Origin: an uncultured Arthrobacter sp. | Lineage (GTDB): Bacteria; Actinomycetota; Actinomycetes; Actinomycetales; Micrococcaceae | NCBI RefSeq assembly: GCF_947495145.1 | Contig: NZ_CANLXP010000027.1 | Coordinates: forward strand, 1-41,963 | Length of the DNA stretch: 41,963 nt | Reading direction: 5' to 3' | In this document: in pieces, positions 1,520 through 9,405 of the stretch | Layout of the letters: every line of letters begins with the position of its first letter | How positions within the stretch are numbered: the stretch's first letter is position 1 | Made by a program: the position numbers and the translations under genes | Notes under the pieces: generated by a model | Told to the model about the DNA's origin: nothing | The model's database searches: none | What the model saw: only the letters and a program-made list of their open reading frames with translations

Positions 1520-2696
1520 TCGAACCCACCCAAGGCAGTGTCGGTCGCACGTCAGGCGATGCACGCTGCTGGCGCTCAATGGACCGCGCGACTGTGGTCT
1601 CCCAGGTTTCGCCGACCACCAGTTGCGCCGCCGTGGAGAAGAAGTACGCGAGTGAATACCGCTGCAAGGGAGTGATTCCCATGACCGGCAGGAGCTCGAA
1701 GAAGTTGTTGATGAGGAAGCGGTAGGCAGCGAAGTCAGTGCCATTGCCCAGCTTGGTGAAATCAAGTTTGCGGAAGGCCCGGTGAAAGTCACTGTAGTTG
1801 CGGTCATCCGATCCGCTCCACTGCACCGCGGTCGCGTCGCCGAACTTCCGTGCCTGCGTAAGGCGGTCCGGGTGCGGATAGGGCAGGATGTCACCGGTAG
1901 CGGCGAGCTCCATCGCCCTCGGGAGCGAGCCTCGTACCCAGCTAAGCCACCCGTCCAGCACCGGATCGCCGGAGAGCTCTCCGGGTTGCAGGTCGGACGC
2001 CATCTGAAGAACGCTCGACAGATCCGACTCCTGCTCGCGGAAGCTTCCCTCCAGAACGCGTTGCAATTGACCATCCGCGTCAGCCCAATAGAAGTACTCC
2101 TTCCAGTGGGAGAGAAACGCCTGATACCCCGAGACGAGCCCCCACTGCGGATAGGAAACAGCTAGCGCAGCCATCCCGCGGAACGCGCTACTGAAGGCGT
2201 GCCCTCCGTCCAGAATCGAGTGATCCGCAGTCAAGACATTGCGCAGTCCGTCGCCGATGATCCTGCCCTTCAGCTCGATCGCGGAACGACTGCGCAGGAA
2301 TGTATCGACCGGTTCCTCATGAATGATGCGAAGGGAGTTGTCTGGTTCCAGAGGCAGATAAGGCGGCTCGGTGAGTTCCAGTCGTCCAAGTTCTTTGGAT
2401 AGGACTTCGTACTGGGCAGGGTCGATAGCGCGGCGGGAAGGGTGGCAGTCGAGGAACAGGCTGATGCTTCCCGCCAGGCGTGGTACTAGCTTCGCCAGCA
2501 CTCCTGCTTCGCCGTGGATATAGAGCGTACTGTGAGGTCCCAACCGCCAATGCGACTGAATCCAGGCGGCGTTCACGCCGTCCATCGCCTGTGCCTGAAA
2601 AACCAGCGGCAAAAGGCAGGTGGCCAGCAACTCCTGCTTGGCGTCGTCGTAGTAGGTCACTTGGAGGCCCACAAAGGCCTTGATTGATTCAGGCAC
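1512..2696 (-). CDS. Thiopeptide-type bacteriocin biosynthesis protein (split LanB C-terminal/SpaB_C, TbtC- or TbtD-like)
   Basis: This 394-residue protein is a stand-alone SpaB_C-type domain. It has the C-terminal pattern NNFFELLPVMGITPLQRYSLAYFF that is typical of thiopeptide LanB C-terminal proteins. In thiopeptide pathways one such protein eliminates glutamate from glutamylated Ser/Thr to give dehydroamino acids (TbtC role). A shorter paralogue forms the central pyridine by [4+2] cycloaddition (TbtD role). Only one copy is visible here. Its length and its place directly after the glutamylation protein favour the TbtC role, but TbtD cannot be excluded. The GTG start (VPESIKAFVG) has GGGAGA seven nt upstream and overlaps the preceding stop by 8 nt (GTGCCTGA). 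A longer reading to 2873 exists, but it has no comparable ribosome site and would run deep into the preceding gene. Confidence 0.78.
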   Translation of the reverse strand: MPESIKAFVGLQVTYYDDAKQELLATCLLPLVFQAQAMDGVNAAWIQSHWRLGPHSTLYIHGEAGVLAKLVPRLAGSISLFLDCHPSRRAIDPAQYEVLSKELGRLELTEPPYLPLEPDNSLRIIHEEPVDTFLRSRSAIELKGRIIGDGLRNVLTADHSILDGGHAFSSAFRGMAALAVSYPQWGLVSGYQAFLSHWKEYFYWADADGQLQRVLEGSFREQESDLSSVLQMASDLQPGELSGDPVLDGWLSWVRGSLPRAMELAATGDILPYPHPDRLTQARKFGDATAVQWSGSDDRNYSDFHRAFRKLDFTKLGNGTDFAAYRFLINNFFELLPVMGITPLQRYSLAYFFSTAAQLVVGETWETTVARSIERQQRASPDVRPTLPWVGSNA

Positions 2697-5283
2697 GACT
2701 TTCTCCCTGTGTTGTGGATATCTCGAAGAACAGCTCGGCGGCATGTCGCCCGGTTCCGGTACTGACGCCCTCGGTGGACGGGTGGGGATGAAACTCTTCG
2801 GCCAGCAGCGTGGGTCCAAGCTGGCGGGTGCGCTTCGCTGCGCCCGCCACATGAAGGCGGCTGAGGAAGTCAAGGTGCTGCGGGCGGGGGCTCATCGCGC
2901 GCTCCACCGGTGTGATCTGACGTCCGAACAAAGGCCGCACGAACACCTCATCGGGTATGCCCGCGGCCCGTCGTCGTACATTAACCTCGCGGAAAGCTTC
3001 AGCCGGCAGGGAATCCGGGTCGGGGATCAGGAGATTCCGTTCAACAGCGAACCGCCGGCGGAACAGCAGAAGATCGCGATGAGTGATTCTCGGAGACGCT
3101 ATGACTTTCCCCGTGCCCGCGTGTAACCGTTGGTGCAGATCCAGCGTCAATTCGCTGAAGGAAAAATACGGGGCACCCGAAATCATGGCGAGTAGCATCT
3201 CGTCGCTGGGAAGAGCATGCGGCACCAGGAAGCCTGTATACAGGACGTCAATAGGATCGCCGGTCCGCTTCTGGTGAAGCTTGAGGCCCGCAGCACTATG
3301 GACCAACTCAAGGTCCTCGATACGGAGGGAAGCCGCAGCAGAGCTCTGCTCATCGGTGAGGTGCAGCTCCTCCTGCGCCAGTAGCGGGCTGAGATTGGCG
3401 TTGAACCCCAGTGTCGAGCGCATCTGAACTGTGCGCTCCCCCGGGGGAGCAACCGACTGAAAAGCGCCGCTCAGGACCTCGCTTACCAGCTCGGGTTGGT
3501 CTTTGAGGAACCTGCTGAAATAACGGCCGCGGCCACCATAAATGTGGTTTACGACCAGCTGGGTGCCGTCTGTCTGGCCGAACACCGACATGGAACGGCG
3601 GTAGGACCATTCACGCTCAGGGATGAGTGAAGCAATGCGGTATAGCACCGCTGTGTCGATGGCCACGTCGGAGTTTCCGCTGCTCGCCAATTCGATGAGG
3701 TGGTCAGCTGCGATGCGTCGGGCGGCGAGCAGGTCGGCAATCCCTGCAGACTCGGCCGGTGATTCTCCTGCGAGCAGCGCCTGGGTCAGGGGGAAAGCTT
3801 CGTATGCCTTTGCCGCAAATCCGCGCAGATCCGAGCACCGACCACCAACGCCGTATTCTCCGACGAACACGGTTTCCAATGCGGCGGCAAGGACTCGCTG
3901 ATCGTCCTGTGCGACCAGAAGGGGCAGGAGGGTCTCCATATCGGCCGCCCAGCCCGTAATCATCTCGCCGGCCGCATTGGCGCCGGTGGCGACATAGCTG
4001 TCCTCGACGAGCGGATTCTCGAGGTGGTCGACCTCGAGGGAATCTGCCCACATTCGCTGCACCTTCTCAACGGTTACCACTCGTTCAGCGCCAGAGCCAG
4101 CGCTAAATCCAACCAGTGCCTGCTCAGTAGCGTCGAGGGCGTCGGTGAGCCGCGCAGCAGCTGCACCGGAAAATCGGCTGACATACTTTCTCCATTGAAG
4201 GAGGTAATCTTCCGCCTGCTCGTTCACAGGGAAGTAGGGAACGAGGAGTCCTCTTGCTGCAAGGGTGGCGGTCAGCTTCTCTGCTTGTTCAGCATCCCAG
4301 CCGAACTGTTGGCGAATGTTGTCCCTGAGTAGGTCCAAAGGAGTTGGTTCGCACAGGATCGTTTGGAGCCCTGCCCACACCCCTCTCCAGGCACCATCCA
4401 GGGCCAGGCTTACGTCGTCTTCAATGAAGGTGTCAGCTTTCATCCCGGCAGCCGGCAGGCGCCAGAGCCGCCGTCGGACAGTCAGGACTCCGTCCCGCTC
4501 ACGAATGCCGTCTGCTATCTTCCACTGCACTTTGAGCGCATCGACGGGGTCCGAGACCAACTGGCGTGCGGCCTGACGGACAAAGAGTCGCCGCAGCTCG
4601 ATCCTGCTTGTCCAGCTGACCCCTTCCGGGTGAACCAGGGCGTCGTCGACATCAAGCTGGTGGAAACGTGTGCCGGTGTAGAGAGAGAAGGGGCTGACTT
4701 TGGTGCAGGATCGGGAAAAGTACTGCACGAGGGAAGGCTCGGATTTGCGCAATCTCTTGGTGAGCTGACCCTGGGCCTCAGCACGCGAGCGCACGGCCCG
4801 GAAGAGCGACGAATTGGTCATCGCGACGCTTCTTTGAACGTCCGGGTCGGCGGTCCAGTCAGTCAACACGGCCCGTTCTCCGTCTAGTGCTGCGGAGTAG
4901 GAGGCATCGAGCTGTGCCTGAAGCTCCGCGGTGTGCCGCCAGCTGCCGAACCATTCCTGCAGGCCATCAATCCTGGGCACGTCCGAATGTTCCCTCAGCA
5001 CAAGACGCGAGTTCCTGTTGTTGAATACATCCCGCTTGACCGGAATCAGGAAGGAGGATCGGTGTGCGCCGCTGAGTTCACACTGACGGGCGAGCCTCTC
5101 CACCAGGGGCTGGCGAAGAATATTGCGAAGGGCCTGCTCCCTGATCAGCTGCTCGATGAGTTCCCTGTCAGCTGCCGAATGCTCGCTGGACCGCAACTGG
5201 GAGTGAGGATAGAGGTTGACCCGCGAAACCCAATAAGGGCTGGTTGTGAGGCGCACTTTCTCCGCCAGGATTGCGTTATTCAC
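2689..5283 (-). CDS. LanB-type dehydratase N-terminal (glutamylation) protein, TbtB-like
   Basis: This 864-residue protein matches the N-terminal half of lantibiotic dehydratases (Lant_dehydr_N), which use glutamyl-tRNA to glutamylate Ser/Thr side chains of a precursor. Recognisable stretches include RLTTSPYWVSRVNLYP near the N-terminus, PSLVQYFSRSCTKVSPFSLYTGT near residue 190, and VFVRPLFGRQITPVERAMSPRPQHLDF near the C-terminus, typical of this family. The elimination domain is absent and is supplied by the next gene, which is the split arrangement of thiopeptide clusters rather than the fused one of class I lanthipeptides. The GTG start has AAGGA about 8 nt upstream and overlaps the permease stop by 8 nt (GTGAATAA). 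The substrate is inferred to be the Ser-rich precursor at 7143-7337. It acts in the cytoplasm. Confidence 0.88.
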   Translation of the reverse strand: MNNAILAEKVRLTTSPYWVSRVNLYPHSQLRSSEHSAADRELIEQLIREQALRNILRQPLVERLARQCELSGAHRSSFLIPVKRDVFNNRNSRLVLREHSDVPRIDGLQEWFGSWRHTAELQAQLDASYSAALDGERAVLTDWTADPDVQRSVAMTNSSLFRAVRSRAEAQGQLTKRLRKSEPSLVQYFSRSCTKVSPFSLYTGTRFHQLDVDDALVHPEGVSWTSRIELRRLFVRQAARQLVSDPVDALKVQWKIADGIRERDGVLTVRRRLWRLPAAGMKADTFIEDDVSLALDGAWRGVWAGLQTILCEPTPLDLLRDNIRQQFGWDAEQAEKLTATLAARGLLVPYFPVNEQAEDYLLQWRKYVSRFSGAAAARLTDALDATEQALVGFSAGSGAERVVTVEKVQRMWADSLEVDHLENPLVEDSYVATGANAAGEMITGWAADMETLLPLLVAQDDQRVLAAALETVFVGEYGVGGRCSDLRGFAAKAYEAFPLTQALLAGESPAESAGIADLLAARRIAADHLIELASSGNSDVAIDTAVLYRIASLIPEREWSYRRSMSVFGQTDGTQLVVNHIYGGRGRYFSRFLKDQPELVSEVLSGAFQSVAPPGERTVQMRSTLGFNANLSPLLAQEELHLTDEQSSAAASLRIEDLELVHSAAGLKLHQKRTGDPIDVLYTGFLVPHALPSDEMLLAMISGAPYFSFSELTLDLHQRLHAGTGKVIASPRITHRDLLLFRRRFAVERNLLIPDPDSLPAEAFREVNVRRRAAGIPDEVFVRPLFGRQITPVERAMSPRPQHLDFLSRLHVAGAAKRTRQLGPTLLAEEFHPHPSTEGVSTGTGRHAAELFFEISTTQGESRA

Positions 5284-6139
5284 CAGTCTCGTCCTTCGCC
5301 GATTTGCGCTGGGTGAACCCACGGGGTTCTTTCTCGGAAGCCCACTTGAAGAGCTTCAAGGAGAAGAAGGCTCCTACAGCGCCCCAAGCGAGCAACAGCA
5401 GCATCGCCTCGATGTCCCAGGACGGTCCGCTGTGGGACAGCGCTCGCGTGAACAACGCCATCAGCGGTTTACCGGGTAGCAGGGCCAGAATGCCGTCAGC
5501 GGTTTCTCCCAGTGAGAGGGCGAAGAAGGCTCCCGAGAGGAACGCCATGGGAAAGAAGATTCCATTGACAATGGGAACCGCTGAGTCGGCATTTGGCGGG
5601 ACGAGCGAAAGCGCAGTCCCCAGTGGCGCGATGCAGATGAAGCCGATCATCGTCGCACCAAGGAGCATCGGGAGCCGGTCCACAATGAGGTCCACTCCGA
5701 GGCCAAGGGTGCCGATCAGGGTAAGCGTCACGAAAACCACAGCCAGTGTGACCAGGGCGTTGACGAGGAAAGCTCCCGTCACTGCGCTTGGAGACACGGG
5801 CGTAGTCCTGAACCGTTTGAAGAGTCCGTGGTGCCTCCGGATTGCCAGACCGATGGCAACGTTCGCGAACGCGACCGAGAGCAGTGCGAAGGTCAAGACT
5901 CCCGCGTAGCTGTAGTTGCCCTGGGTTATCTGATTCGATTCCAGGCTAAGAACGACCGCGGATTGGTCGCGGTAGGCAAATCCGAAGCCCACGTAAAACA
6001 TGACGGGCAGCAGAACGATGAAGGCAAGGGAGATGATCGATCGCCAAAAGTCCTTGAACTCCATTTCCACATGCAGGAGGAATGATCGGACGAAAGTGCC
6101 CTGGTTGTGGACGGCTGCAGCGGTTGTAGCACTCATCAT
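5276..6139 (-). CDS. ABC-2 type transporter permease of the thiopeptide cluster
   Basis: This 287-residue integral membrane protein has six or so hydrophobic segments: SIISLAFIVLLPVMFYVGF, YAGVLTFALLSVAFANVAIG, two central segments, IVNGIFFPMAFLSGAFF and LLLLAWGAVGAFFSL. The central RRHHGLFKRFRTTPVSP motif before TM3 is characteristic of ABC-2 (DrrB-like) export permeases. It pairs with the ATPase encoded immediately upstream, whose stop overlaps its start by 4 nt (ATGA). AGGAGG precedes two consecutive ATG codons, so the start may be the first (6139) or the second (6136). Context suggests export of, or self-immunity to, the thiopeptide product. Confidence 0.86.
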   Translation of the reverse strand: MMSATTAAAVHNQGTFVRSFLLHVEMEFKDFWRSIISLAFIVLLPVMFYVGFGFAYRDQSAVVLSLESNQITQGNYSYAGVLTFALLSVAFANVAIGLAIRRHHGLFKRFRTTPVSPSAVTGAFLVNALVTLAVVFVTLTLIGTLGLGVDLIVDRLPMLLGATMIGFICIAPLGTALSLVPPNADSAVPIVNGIFFPMAFLSGAFFALSLGETADGILALLPGKPLMALFTRALSHSGPSWDIEAMLLLLAWGAVGAFFSLKLFKWASEKEPRGFTQRKSAKDETGE

Positions 6140-7047
6140 TTGCCTCCTGTGGTGGCTGCTGGTTCGAGCAGGTTCGCGTAGGCGTCATCCAGGCTCGGCG
6201 GGATGACTGTCAAACCTTGTATGGGCTGGTCAGTTTCACTGGACCAGCGCTGGAGAGCAGCCATCAGCTGGTCCTGATCGTGCGTTTCGTAGTGCACAAA
6301 GCCGCCGCTAACCTGGCCTCCCGTGGGAAGCGAAGCCTGCTCGATTCCGCTCAACAGAAAGCGGACCTGAGTCGTCGAATGTGAACCGGCGATGATGTTT
6401 TCAGGTGACCCGGACGCGATGAACTGCCCAGCGGCGAGGACATGAATGGTATCTGCCAGGTCCTGCACTTCGTCCAGGTCGTGAGAGGTGAGGATCACAG
6501 TGGTCCCGCTTGAATTCACTTCCCGAATGAGCTCCCTGATGTTGCGGCGTGAGAGCGGATCCAGACCCGTAGTCGGCTCGTCAAGGAAGAGGATTTCCGG
6601 ATGGCCGACCAACGCGAGCGCAATATCCAGACGCCTCCGCATGCCCCCTGAAAGCGTCCGGACCAGACCGTTCTGCTTGTCCTCCAGCCCCACCTTCCGC
6701 AGGACTTCCCCCAGGTCCATGGGGTGTGCGTAATACGACGCCTGCCGTCGAAGCAGGTCACGGGACGAGATGCCCGGTTCGAGCATGGTCTGCTGGAGCA
6801 CCACGCCCATTCTCCGCCGTAGCAAACGGAAGTCACGACGGTCGGCGGGATCCAGGCCGAGCACGCTGAGGTGCCCGCCGGTGCGCATGCGGTGGCCCTC
6901 CAGTATCTCAACGAGCGACGTTTTGCCGGCCCCGTTGGGACCAAGCAACGCAACGACCGCTCCAGCCTCAACGGAAAGGTCGATACCTTGGAGAACAGGG
7001 GTTGCCGAGTAAGCCTTTACTAGGCCTACGGCGTTGATTGCTTTCAC
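6136..7047 (-). CDS. ABC transporter ATP-binding protein of the thiopeptide cluster
   Basis: This 303-residue protein is a DrrA/CcmA-type ATPase. It has Walker A GPNGAGKTS (residues 36-44), the Q-loop in GVVLQQ, signature LSGGMRRRLDIALA, Walker B ILFLDEPTTGLD and the switch histidine in TSHDLDEV. A C-terminal extension of about 90 residues after the nucleotide-binding domain is typical of drug-export ATPases. The GTG start (VKAINAVGLV) has GAGGAA seven nt upstream. An in-frame extension to 7203 would run into the precursor gene and is rejected. It energises the permease encoded just downstream. An 11-14 bp hairpin lies between the precursor gene and this one and may set relative expression. 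Confidence 0.9.
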   Translation of the reverse strand: MKAINAVGLVKAYSATPVLQGIDLSVEAGAVVALLGPNGAGKTSLVEILEGHRMRTGGHLSVLGLDPADRRDFRLLRRRMGVVLQQTMLEPGISSRDLLRRQASYYAHPMDLGEVLRKVGLEDKQNGLVRTLSGGMRRRLDIALALVGHPEILFLDEPTTGLDPLSRRNIRELIREVNSSGTTVILTSHDLDEVQDLADTIHVLAAGQFIASGSPENIIAGSHSTTQVRFLLSGIEQASLPTGGQVSGGFVHYETHDQDQLMAALQRWSSETDQPIQGLTVIPPSLDDAYANLLEPAATTGGK

Positions 7048-7077
7048 TTGATGTTCCTCATTTCCTTGAACCTTGTG

Positions 7078-7129
7078 GTGCCTGCCGGGCGCCCTGGATG
7101 TCATGCCACCGACGACGCCCGGCAGGTAC
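7078..7129 (-). terminator. Hairpin between precursor gene and transporter genes (possible attenuator or leaky terminator)
   Basis: CCTGCCGGGCG at 7081-7091 pairs perfectly with CGCCCGGCAGG at 7116-7126. Three further pairs including one wobble extend the stem, around a 24-nt loop. No U-tract follows in the minus direction, so a strong intrinsic terminator is unlikely. A partial terminator or mRNA-stabilising hairpin would let the precursor be made in excess over the enzymes, as is common in RiPP operons. Confidence 0.55.
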
Positions 7130-7142
7130 ACCGGATGTGGGA

Positions 7143-7337
7143 CTAGCCGCAGGACCCGGACGAGCAGCACGAACTGCTGCCGCAACAGGAGGTTGAGCTG
7201 CATGAACTGGAGCCGCTGGTTGCGCCGGTTTCAGGCACAGCTACCGCCTCCCGAACCGACATGACTTCGAGTCCCTCGAAATCCATGTCGGGCAGTGCAA
7301 TGACAGGTGCTGTGGTGGTGCTGTCGATAGTGCTCAT
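7143..7337 (-). CDS. Thiazolylpeptide-type bacteriocin precursor peptide
   Basis: This 64-residue peptide has an acidic leader with the DFEGLEVMSVREAVAVPETGA pattern, which matches the thiazolylpeptide precursor family (TIGR03892-like), where a (M/L)PE-x-GA motif precedes the core. If cleavage falls after PETGA, the core is the last 25 residues and contains only Ser (13), Cys (6), Gly (4) and Thr (2), for example SSSCSSTSCCG. The Cys residues would be candidates for thiazoles and the Ser/Thr for dehydroamino acids or, with suitable ring donors, a pyridine. The ATG start has AAAGGGGAG just upstream. A promoter and operator-like palindrome lie 65-95 nt upstream. It is the first gene of the minus-strand cluster. 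The family call is strong; the cleavage site and final structure are inferred. Confidence 0.9.
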   Translation of the reverse strand: MSTIDSTTTAPVIALPDMDFEGLEVMSVREAVAVPETGATSGSSSCSSTSCCGSSSCCSSGSCG

Positions 7338-7390
7338 TACTCCCCTTTATGTGTTCGGTACCGGCGGTGACTACCCCAGTAACCGTTGTG

Positions 7391-7429
7391 TTGACAAGAT
7401 GAGACTAGCGGTTGACAAGTAATTGTCAA
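7391..7429. promoter_or_regulatory. Operator-like inverted repeat TTGACAA-N4-TTGTCAA plus an extra half-site
   Basis: A perfect 18-bp palindrome (TTGACAAGTAATTGTCAA) occupies 7412-7429, and a further direct TTGACAA lies at 7391-7397, 21 nt away (two helical turns). The same TTGAC...GTCAA architecture recurs upstream of the XRE-TPR regulator gene at 7791-7807. It is a candidate binding site of that regulator. This is inference from sequence symmetry and repetition. Confidence 0.55.
7402..7429 (-). promoter_or_regulatory. Promoter of the thiopeptide precursor operon
   Basis: On the minus strand TTGACA (7429-7424) is followed after 16 nt by TAGTCT (7407-7402), a sigma-70-like pair. The predicted start of transcription is near 7395, giving a leader of about 55 nt before the precursor ATG. 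The -35 hexamer lies inside the 18-bp palindrome at 7412-7429, so a factor bound there would compete with or contact RNA polymerase. Confidence 0.55.
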
Positions 7430-7458
7430 TTATTGTTGAAGAAGTGACACAAAGACAC

Positions 7459-7496
7459 AAAAAACCGGGCTGGAGTTACCAGCCCGGCTTGTTTTT
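7459..7496. terminator. Bidirectional intrinsic terminator
   Basis: CCGGGCTGG (7465-7473) and CCAGCCCGG (7479-7487) form a perfect 9-bp stem with loop AGTTA. A run of six A precedes it and GTTTTT follows, so on the minus strand the stem is followed by six U. It would terminate the minus-strand repeat-peptide transcript before the precursor promoter. Confidence 0.88.
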
Positions 7497-7526
7497 GTGC
7501 GCACCCGCCGAACCGGCGAGCATCGT

Positions 7527-7733
7527 CTATCGAAGTACTCCCCCGCCTCCCAGTGGCCAATCCCCGATTCCACCCAACGGCCAGTCACCTATTCCACCGA
7601 GCGGCCAGTCGCCGATGTGCTGTGGGATACCGCCCGGGACATGGGTTGATTCGATGCTTGTCGGGTGCGGGTGCGTCGCACTTCCAGCCTCGGAGTGATG
7701 CAGTGATGCAACCAAGAGCAATACTTCGAACAT
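7527..7733 (-). CDS. Small peptide with three IGDWPLGG repeats; candidate pheromone precursor
   Basis: This 68-residue ORF starts at ATG with GGGGGA eight nt upstream. It has a short hydrophobic N-terminus (MFEVLLLVASL), a His/Thr/Ser-rich middle, then three perfect tandem copies of IGDWPLGG (residues 40-63) and the tail GGVLR. The 24-nt DNA copies differ from one another at 4, 6 and 7 positions, and every difference is synonymous in this frame. The opposite-strand reading of the same DNA changes Asn/Ser, so this frame appears to be the selected one. The gene is divergent from the XRE-TPR regulator and is followed by an intrinsic terminator. The best guess is an exported precursor that is cut into identical short signalling peptides. 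A multi-core RiPP substrate or a small secreted peptide of other function is also possible. I do not recognise a family. Confidence 0.66.
   Translation of the reverse strand: MFEVLLLVASLHHSEAGSATHPHPTSIESTHVPGGIPQHIGDWPLGGIGDWPLGGIGDWPLGGGGVLR
7545..7616 (-). repeat. Three tandem 24-nt coding repeats (IGDWPLGG)
   Basis: The copies on the minus strand occupy 7616-7593, 7592-7569 and 7568-7545. Codons differ (for example Gly GGC/GGT/GGG, Leu CTC/TTG/CTG, Ile ATC/ATA/ATC) while the amino acids are identical. This indicates an old repeat maintained by selection on the peptide rather than a recent slippage product. Confidence 0.9.
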
Positions 7734-7790
7734 GTAGTTTCCCCCAAGAAGTGACGTGTAGTAGAATTTTGTCTAGTAGCTGATCGCTGG

Positions 7791-7830
7791 TTGACACGCT
7801 TAGTCAAACGGGGGCCGCTTCGGTTGTCAA
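7791..7830. promoter_or_regulatory. Operator-like repeats between repeat-peptide gene and regulator gene
   Basis: TTGAC-N7-GTCAA occupies 7791-7807 and a further TTGTCAA half-site lies at 7824-7830. Both sit in the 140-bp divergent intergenic region (7734-7873). They resemble the palindrome over the thiopeptide precursor promoter. A possible -10 (TAGAAT, 7762-7767) for the rightward gene lies upstream without a convincing -35, so the exact promoters here remain unclear. Confidence 0.45.
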
Positions 7831-7873
7831 TGGGTACCGTCGGACTGGTTCCGGCCGGCCAGAAGGAGTCATA

Positions 7874-9097
7874 GTGACTTTCGGAGAAAAACTTCGGGAA
7901 GCGCGGGTAGCCAAAGGGCTGACCCAGAACGAGCTAGGCGGGGGCAAGTACTCAACCAGCTATGTGTCGCTACTGGAGCGAGCCCAGCGGCAGCCCACCC
8001 TGGCCATGACGCGGCATTTCGCCGACATACTGGGAATCGAGCCGGACACCGTCGCGCAATGGATCGGTTCTCCAGAACCGGATAGCGGCGGACTGTCGGC
8101 AGCTGTCCTCCATGCAACCAGTGCCGCAAATCTCAAGGACCATGCACTTGCTGCGTCCGAAGCTGAATATGCAGCCAGCCTGGCAAAAGAGCAGATGAAC
8201 ACGGCTGTCTGGTGGAACATGACTGCCGTGCAGGCTGAAGCGTATTTGGCGCTTGGAAGGTTTGATGAGGCCGTCGCCACCCTGGAAGAACTGCTGGAAC
8301 ATCCCACTACCCTCGCTCAGCCGGAACTGCATGCCACCGCCCTGGTGAGGTTGTCCGCCATCAAGCGAGCCACAGGCGACTTGGAGGACGCAATCGCCTT
8401 GGCACGCGCCGCAACCGGAGTCTCCAGGAGCCTCCCGGAACATTCGGCTACGCGCCTCGAATGCGGCTACGTGCTTGTTGCGGCACTGGCGGTTCGGGGC
8501 AATCTCGATGAAGCGTGGCAGCACGCATCTGATTTGGCGCTCGTCGACCAGTTCCCCGAGGTGCCTTCGCTGTCCATAGGACGTGCAGCGTGGGTCGTGG
8601 GCAACGTAGCCTTCCGACGGGGAGATGTTGAAACCGGCCTCAAACAACACCGGCTCGCAGCAGAGCACATCACACCGCAGGCAGACATCGGCATGTGGGC
8701 GCAGTTCAATCGAGCGAGTGCCTCCCGGCGACTGGCGGCGGGTATATCCGATGAGGACGTCGAGCAATGTATTGAGAACGCTGTACTCGGACTTCGCATT
8801 GCGGGCACCGCTGAAGAACATCTGGAACTTGCCCTGACCAGAGCACACCTACACAGCTCGCGCGGGGAATTTGAAGCAGCGAAACCACTACTTTTCGAAG
8901 TTCAGGAAAAAGCGGCAGGACTCGAATTCGAAGCCGCCGGGCTGCTGGAACTCCTGCTCGGCCGATACTACGCAAATGTTGAGGATCTCGAGGCGGCCAG
9001 GACTCACTACATGAAGGCCGCGAAATTGTATTCGGACGCCAGCGCATCCGATGTTGCTTCTCACGTTTTGGGCGAGCTGATGGACATCGCTTCCTGA
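7874..9097 (+). CDS. XRE-family regulator with TPR domain (RRNPP-like)
   Basis: This 407-residue protein has an N-terminal HTH_XRE domain (residues 4-58: FGEKLREARVAKGLTQNELGG, then STSYVSLLERAQRQPT, where the recognition helix sits). The remainder, residues 80-400, is helical tetratricopeptide-like repeats, for example ALGRFDEAVATLEELLEHP, RGNLDEAWQHASDLALV, RGEFEAAKPLLFEVQEKA and VEDLEAARTHYMKAAKLY. This two-part architecture is that of Rgg/PlcR/NprR-type receptors, where the TPR groove binds a short imported peptide. Actinobacterial XRE-TPR proteins without known peptide ligands also exist. GTG start with AAGGAG at good spacing. It is divergent from the IGDWPLGG repeat peptide and close to the thiopeptide operon, with TTGAC...GTCAA palindromes at both places. 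Regulation of the cluster is inferred. Confidence 0.85.
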   Translation: MTFGEKLREARVAKGLTQNELGGGKYSTSYVSLLERAQRQPTLAMTRHFADILGIEPDTVAQWIGSPEPDSGGLSAAVLHATSAANLKDHALAASEAEYAASLAKEQMNTAVWWNMTAVQAEAYLALGRFDEAVATLEELLEHPTTLAQPELHATALVRLSAIKRATGDLEDAIALARAATGVSRSLPEHSATRLECGYVLVAALAVRGNLDEAWQHASDLALVDQFPEVPSLSIGRAAWVVGNVAFRRGDVETGLKQHRLAAEHITPQADIGMWAQFNRASASRRLAAGISDEDVEQCIENAVLGLRIAGTAEEHLELALTRAHLHSSRGEFEAAKPLLFEVQEKAAGLEFEAAGLLELLLGRYYANVEDLEAARTHYMKAAKLYSDASASDVASHVLGELMDIAS

Positions 9098-9138
9098 AAT
9101 AAGTGCCACCGTTATCAAACCCTATGAAAGGTCAACCC

Positions 9139-9405
9139 ATGGAGTACATGCCCTGGTTCGCTTGGATCGCTATTGCCGGAATCATTGCGTTTGCCATTAC
9201 ACAAGTGGCGGTACAGATGGGCGGGAGACGGTCGGCGTCCAACAACGATCAACTGGTACGCACGATGCAGGCAACCCAGGAAACCAATCGCGCGCTGCTT
9301 GCCAGAGTCGAGCAGATCGATGGCCGACTGGCAAACCTGGAAACGCTCGGTTCCACAGACGCCGCCCTGCAGGATCGAGCCACATCGCAGGAAAACAAAA
9401 GCTAG
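9139..9405 (+). CDS. Small membrane protein with coiled coil
   Basis: This 88-residue protein has one N-terminal membrane segment (MPWFAWIAIAGIIAFAITQV) followed by a predicted helical coiled-coil stretch (NNDQLVRTMQATQETNRALLARVEQIDGRLANLE). The topology is probably N-out with a short cytoplasmic helix. The start was set at MEYMPW because AAAGG lies seven nt upstream; an in-frame ATG 7 codons earlier is possible. It lies 41 bp after the XRE-TPR gene and may be cotranscribed with it. I recognise no specific family beyond a conserved actinobacterial small membrane protein, and function is unknown. Its stop codon overlaps that of the convergent gene in a CTAG palindrome. Confidence 0.7.
   Translation: MEYMPWFAWIAIAGIIAFAITQVAVQMGGRRSASNNDQLVRTMQATQETNRALLARVEQIDGRLANLETLGSTDAALQDRATSQENKS

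Follow-up and report, generated by a model that had tools for sequence, protein, structure and literature searches.

Does a short gene beside a thiopeptide cluster in Arthrobacter encode a peptide pheromone and, if so, does this signal reach the cluster? The locus lies on contig NZ_CANLXP010000027.1 of an uncultured Arthrobacter sp. (assembly GCF_947495145.1), whose 41,963 nucleotides, taken whole, are called the window here. It comprises an open reading frame (ORF) of 68 codons and, in the opposite orientation, a gene for a protein with a helix-turn-helix (HTH) domain and tetratricopeptide repeats (TPR). A sequence-only reading had proposed that the first encodes a multi-copy pheromone precursor and the second its RRNPP-like receptor, and that together they control the thiopeptide. 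We consider it likely that the two genes form a quorum-sensing peptide-receptor pair, which is carried by the thiopeptide cluster and would control it through palindromes. The gene pair, the selection on the peptide, the recurrence of such pairs, the co-change of peptide and receptor in the Arthrobacter group, the fold class of the receptor and a shared palindrome were all computed here.

When the ORF was translated from its first in-frame start (ATG at 7733), three identical IGDWPLGG units were found, as had been described; they stand back to back in the C-terminal part of the product and are followed by GGVLR. The 24-nt copies differ pairwise at 4, 6 and 7 positions, and their eight variable sites are all synonymous (8/8; P ~1.5e-5, assuming one single change in four to be synonymous). 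This supports the earlier suggestion that the peptide sequence is under selection. The announced ribosome site and terminator are also present; a hairpin scan of positions 7100-7900 gave two terminator-like stems against 0.8 expected in shuffles, and a sigma-70 promoter scan of the same interval found no promoter. The 68-aa precursor has no Pfam match and no cysteine and, without a Cys/Ser-rich core, is not thiopeptide-precursor-like. Among 20 candidates scored, its only database relative is P0001, a metagenome protein of 54 aa, which keeps the MFEVLLL.ASL start and IGDWPLGG/IGDWPL units and differs in the middle part.

The divergent neighbour has the HTH and TPR domains attributed to it beforehand. 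According to an excerpt of PMC10075063, RRNPP(A) receptors are proteins of 250-500 aa with TPRs; the window receptor falls within this range, carries an N-terminal HTH (HTH_31) and has a propeptide gene adjacent to it. Its AlphaFold2 model (predicted local distance difference test score, pLDDT, 93.2; predicted template modelling score, pTM, 0.86) belongs, by fold comparison, to the same fold class as RRNPP(A) receptors. For five of the receptors NCBIfam families are listed, none of them an RRNPPA receptor family. By analogy, the pair would work like RRNPP(A) quorum sensing, homology to these systems being putative.

The sequence-only reading had recommended a search of related genomes for tandem-repeat ORFs beside relatives of the regulator, and such loci are indeed frequent. 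In a scan of named genomes with the receptor alignment, the best 80 of 249 confirmed relatives were analysed. A divergent, leader-bearing precursor was found at 65 of these 80 HTH-TPR loci, all of them outside the window's genus group; the 15 others (L152-L166) are orthologues close to the window's genus. The units are mostly [IVTS]GNWPD, chiefly IGNWPDPM or VGNWPDPM, with exceptions in L205 (SGNWPYPV) and in L193, where three of four units are IGIWPDPM or similar, and the leaders look Sec-like by eye and by a hydropathy filter. Inside one precursor the units are identical in 51 of 58 cases while the spacers vary; in a first count, 51 of 56 precursors were uniform against an average of 15.6 and a maximum of 25 when units were shuffled among precursors. 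Differences between units of the same precursor are synonymous in 282 cases and nonsynonymous in 36, a count made with a looser search pattern that still requires WPD in the ORF; an earlier count of 269:15 was set aside because its pattern had the core fixed.

A DNA pattern of two GNWP/GDWP units separated by 6-36 nt was also searched for in the family. It occurs in 83 of 395 genomes and 18 of 32 genera (backwards control, 27/395), and within the genus in 10 of 38 genomes (control, 5/38); part of these matches are due to chance or to simple repeats. A receptor relative lies within 1.5 kb at 40 of 48 matching loci, some of which overlap the same array. Among the loci with no receptor, L040 and L129 have no open frame with two units, and L136 and L146 look like chance matches. 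Four others (L128 at ~1476-1685, L133, L140 and L141) carry repeated GNWPDPM-type units but have neither a Sec-like leader nor a receptor at a distance of up to 1.5 kb, the L128 ORF starting with MSTHAPLS; they are possible orphan precursors, either decoys or alternatively exported.

Peptide and receptor change together. At peptide position 1, the 65 loci have I (37), V (20), T (6) or S (2), and receptor residues 125/130/165 (window receptor numbering) are M-L-H in 37/37 I-type pairs and I-W-Q in 19/20 V-type pairs, the T- and S-types being mixed. We tested 248 receptor columns on a FastTree tree built without the columns under test. Position 1 changes nine times on this tree, and in columns 125, 130 and 165 the changes fall on position-1 branches in 6/7, 6/7 and 6/8 cases (P 1e-7, 1e-7 and 4e-7); position 8 changes five times, with columns 194 and 200 co-changing in 4/6 (P 7e-6). 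In the AlphaFold2 model, the first three residues fall in helices 2A, 2B and 3A and the other two in helix 4A; in TPR proteins, it is the A helices that face the groove. A sister contrast is given by L172, which has an I-type peptide and the pocket MLAVH within a V-type clade of pocket IWGIQ. Compared with three sister receptors in blocks of 30 residues, its receptor is 90-100% identical throughout except within residues 119-179, where identity is 60-87%; L226 is a second, less clean contrast of this kind. We read this as an exchange of the receptor-specificity segment together with the signal. Since passenger columns are possible in such a tract exchange, single receptor-peptide contacts remain predicted.

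A receptor search in 57 genomes gave matches in 43. Genomes of the window's genus hold HTH-TPR orthologues plus one or two TPR-only paralogues without the HTH; for one of these, a Pfam search gave no HTH match. The paralogues adjoin a small, divergently oriented ORF that has a ribosome site and a hydrophobic MKK..LLL-type leader and ends, for example, in VNNWPY, VGSWPF, IDDWPH or tandem VGNWPD. With one filter, a leader ORF with WP in its last 16 residues was found upstream of 39 of 42 TPR-only receptor genes, distributed over 35 loci (L052-L086); shuffled upstream regions gave a mean of 0.27 and a maximum of 1, and the downstream control 7/42, matches which probably come from the next receptor's precursor in paired loci. 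Two of the three misses have short upstream sequence (~220 nt in L052, ~80 nt in L056) and L063 is a true miss. On contig 29 of the window genome, three VGNWPD copies lie between two TPR genes, and the TPR-only protein encoded there is modelled (pLDDT 92.0) as helical hairpins from its start, with no HTH before them. In L052 (3199-4920) and L066 (6630-8231), a gene for a GGDEF-EAL protein with a HAMP-like start lies downstream of the TPR-only gene and in the same orientation; the gap is 3 nt in L066 and a small-ORF-containing stretch in the window's own genome. This gene order suggests that peptides with the Trp-Pro (W-P) motif may control cyclic-di-GMP.

Similar pairs extend beyond the family. 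At the level of the order, 26 of 396 genomes have TPR relatives; the repeats seen there include six VGDWPH units (L108) and two to three VGGSWPT units (L114, L115). In the phylum, HTH-TPR matches at E 1e-15 occur in 30 of 396 genomes, and 15 of 27 newly fetched loci have an upstream W-P-ended leader ORF (shuffles, 0.34; downstream, 1/27), with a filter set after part of those loci had been viewed; for 17 of the 27, the match spanned no more than half of the profile, being confined in many cases to the HTH. In the class, 56 of 296 genomes matched at 1e-20. Among its loci, L269-L290 had not been viewed before the filter was applied, and 12 of these 22 have an upstream W-P leader ORF (shuffles, 0.18; downstream, 0/22); the motif accepted here, W.?P or P.?W within the final 12 residues, is less strict than that of the family, and six of the 12 (L277, L279, L281, L282, L284 and L289) are mutually close relatives. 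Examples are a two-copy DIGWP precursor and an ORF ending in PDWPGMCC; the first ORF of L283 and that of L285 look weak. In those six loci and in L246, L248, L261 and L271, the W-P motif of the leader ORF is followed by a terminal CC or HC (as in APWPHCC), and these cysteines may matter for processing. The idea of a selected multi-copy peptide with an RRNPP-like receptor is thus supported by similar pairs in genus, family and phylum and by the co-change of peptide and receptor.

The adjacent cluster is a thiopeptide cluster, as first recognised, its precursor matching Thiopep_pre. Two TTGAC-N6..9-GTCAA palindromes are present in the window, where 0.16 is expected; two or more were obtained in 4 of 100 shuffles. 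In its degenerate form, TTGACA-N5/6-WGTMAA, the motif occurs at two places of the 3.55-Mb genome, both in the window and at the positions given in the table (backwards control, 2); the one before the thiopeptide precursor coincides, by eye, with a possible -35 box. TTGAC-N7/8-GTCAA occurs at three places in the window genome (backwards control, 4 per strand) and at six in another genome, G010 (control, 0); in both genomes, two of these are the sites upstream of the receptor and of the thiopeptide precursor. In G010, the dehydratase gene (bar a remnant), the peptide gene and the greater part of the thiopeptide precursor have been lost; the receptor (78% identical; dN 0.13, dS 2.47, the rates of nonsynonymous and synonymous change, dS being saturated), the ATP-binding cassette (ABC) genes (81 and 90% identical over aligned parts) and both palindromes are kept. 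It looks like a listener that would keep transport, and perhaps immunity, under the receptor. Among the 65 related precursor-bearing loci, TTGACA-N5-TGTAAA was found at most 300 nt before the receptor in all 65, a motif read off the same sequences afterwards, so that this count expresses conservation among related loci and not an independent test. It was found before 0/15 receptors with no peptide gene, 0/17 TPR-only receptors and 2/10 further HTH loci, both Arthrobacter-type. We also looked for perfect palindromes with 6-nt arms common to Arthrobacter intergenic regions; none was widely shared (best, 12/65). The shared palindrome is the one observation that suggests control of the thiopeptide by the pair.

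We propose that the 68-aa precursor would be exported and cut into IGDWP-containing oligopeptides, which would be taken up again by an oligopeptide permease and bind the divergent HTH-TPR protein in its concave TPR groove. For the uptake, the window genome encodes five candidate SBP_bac_5 proteins. The liganded receptor would then change its action at TTGACA-N5/6-WGTMAA, both before the receptor and precursor genes (autoregulation) and before the thiopeptide operon. As for the sign, our guess is that the free receptor represses and that the peptide relieves; repression is favoured because the palindrome before the thiopeptide precursor coincides with the possible -35 box.

Several observations weigh against this scheme and lend themselves to other explanations. 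Conservation of the regulator with a broken repeat frame had been named beforehand as refuting a pheromone system, and G010 is such a case, with the receptor kept and the peptide gene gone; the thiopeptide dehydratase and most of the thiopeptide precursor have disappeared there as well. By our filters, no W-P-ended peptide gene was found at the 15 orthologues close to the window's genus (0/15; receptors 43-59% identical to that of the window), which may listen to the peptide of a TPR-only locus or have another role; no W-P leader ORF was found at L112, L113 and L116, where receptors are present, nor at 12/27 phylum-wide and 10/22 class-wide loci. The test of co-change covered the 65 loci of the Arthrobacter group, all outside the window's genus. 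As to the thiopeptide, the pair could be a real signalling unit whose receptor regulates only itself and the precursor, its place beside the cluster being incidental. Relatives of the pair adjoin apparent purine-synthesis genes (by eye), with no thiopeptide seen in the ORF lists viewed at those loci, and the thiopeptide dehydratase occurs in one of 38 genomes of the genus, that of the window. Nevertheless one of the only two degenerate palindromes of the genome precedes the thiopeptide precursor, and G010 has TTGAC-N8-GTCAA at the same position, with the ABC genes and the receptor, so that we regard an incidental neighbourhood as unlikely, though it deserves some weight. The early proposal of thiopeptide control is kept for the shared palindrome.

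Other readings concern the peptide itself. If translated but not exported, it could be a small intracellular inhibitor of the TPR protein, with no signalling between cells. The N-terminal stretch of the window precursor, MFEVLLLVASL, is indeed hydrophobic, as first stated, but it has no basic residue and is unlike the Sec-type leaders of relatives, and the orphan multi-copy ORFs of L128 and L133 point the same way; the Sec-like leaders of relatives and the variable spacers between units, which suit extracellular cutting, make this improbable. We give slightly less credit to a secreted toxin or a multi-core product of the ribosomally synthesized and post-translationally modified peptide (RiPP) class, with the HTH-TPR protein as regulator or immunity gene. 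In its favour, multi-core RiPPs can likewise carry identical core repeats, and the neighbourhood includes an ABC transporter and a RiPP enzyme. Against it, no RiPP-modifying enzyme stood out near related precursors (ORF lists read by eye, with no systematic annotation), the peptide changes in step with receptor residues, and the thiopeptide has its own precursor. A chance repeat, or one that is not coding, is hardly credible as an explanation of the ORF: the exact IGDWPLGG unit is confined to one genome and P0001, and G010 has no peptide gene, but the variable sites are all synonymous, a ribosome site and a terminator are present, and similar units lie beside related receptors in many genera.

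The RRNPP(A) systems of Firmicutes (NprR-NprX, PlcR-PapR, Rap-Phr, AimR-AimP) likewise place a small leader-bearing propeptide gene beside the receptor, which is HTH-TPR or, as in Rap, TPR-only; the same two architectures and the same predicted fold class are found here. It had been assumed that known precursors usually carry one copy. This has to be corrected, since excerpts of PMC9765709 and PMC11343458 describe multi-copy propeptides, like that of the window, as frequent with AimR, NprR, Rap and PlcR. Peptide-less receptors such as those seen here recall the RRNPPA 'eavesdropper' receptors with no peptide gene described in an excerpt of PMC9765709. The differences lie in the host, Actinomycetota and not Firmicutes, in the receptor profile, which matched PlcR (1e-6) and ComR through the HTH only, and in the position of the TPR-only receptors, whose genes directly precede a GGDEF-EAL gene at both loci looked at. 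To our knowledge, the core [IV]G[ND]WP-x is unlike known RRNPP(A) pheromones, and a literature search with peptide strings found one paper, which is unrelated. Rgg-SHP and ComRS of streptococci combine a receptor made of an HTH and helical repeats with a short hydrophobic precursor. The latter resembles the MFEVLLL start of the window, whereas excerpts of PMC9765709 report no duplicated pheromone units in Rgg and ComR propeptides. We saw no sequence relation of these receptors to the window receptor beyond the HTH. gamma-Butyrolactone signalling of Streptomyces uses a small-molecule signal and a TetR-type receptor, with no peptide gene. It likewise controls antibiotic production in Actinomycetota (excerpt of PMC4748050), where cell-cell signalling is typically small-molecule based, according to excerpts of PMC10075063 and PMC4748050.

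In the open-access literature, we found RRNPP(A) quorum sensing described only in Firmicutes, and no actinobacterial RRNPP or W-P pheromone was among the matches listed, a weak absence since preprints lay outside the scope. We are moderately inclined to think that Actinomycetota own a phylum-wide peptide quorum sensing of their own. It would employ HTH-TPR or TPR-only receptors and mostly divergent Trp-Pro leader peptides, with a single C-terminal copy or amplification to at least six; pherotypes would switch by replacement of a two-repeat receptor segment together with the peptide, and both an antibiotic cluster and cyclic-di-GMP enzymes would have recruited the system. As the pheromone core is visible, groove contacts are predicted and candidate operators are at hand, a peptide system in Arthrobacter and its relatives makes peptide quorum sensing in the phylum directly testable with synthetic peptides. 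It may also open a way to silent antibiotic clusters, and the natural series of pherotype switches is material for studying the evolution of signal specificity.

Table. Features of the pheromone and thiopeptide locus (positions in the window)
Feature	Position	Strand	Remark
Candidate peptide-pheromone precursor ORF, 68 codons/68 aa	7527-7733	-	hydrophobic N-terminus, then three IGDWPLGG units
Ribosome-binding site GGGGG, upstream of precursor ORF	7741-7745	-	read from sequence
IGDWPLGG copy 1	7593-7616	-	
IGDWPLGG copy 2	7569-7592	-	
IGDWPLGG copy 3	7545-7568	-	
Terminator-like stem of precursor, 12 pairs and T-run	7462-7490	-	hairpin scan
Palindrome TTGACA-N5-AGTCAA, candidate operator	7791-7807		between precursor and receptor
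Palindrome TTGACA-N6-TGTCAA, candidate operator	7412-7429		~75 nt before thiopeptide precursor start
HTH-TPR receptor/regulator, 407 aa	7874-9097	+	HTH_31 E 2.1e-8 plus TPR match; divergent from precursor
Thiopeptide precursor, candidate target	7143-7337	-	PF19409 Thiopep_pre E 1.6e-14
ABC transporter ATPase, thiopeptide cluster	6136-7203	-	kept in G010
ABC-2 permease, thiopeptide cluster	5276-6139	-	kept in G010
Lantibiotic-dehydratase-type enzyme, thiopeptide cluster	2689-5322	-	PF04738 E 1.7e-11

The listed start of the ABC ATPase overlaps the thiopeptide precursor, and the real start is probably further in. At the contig end, adjoining the dehydratase gene, two large overlapping ORFs of 688 and 453 aa occupy positions 8-2873 on the minus strand, with no Pfam match at 0.01. 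Directly after the receptor gene, a small ORF (9103-9405, plus strand) has a hydrophobic start, likely at ATG 9124 or 9139, and its beginning falls in a stretch conserved in G010.
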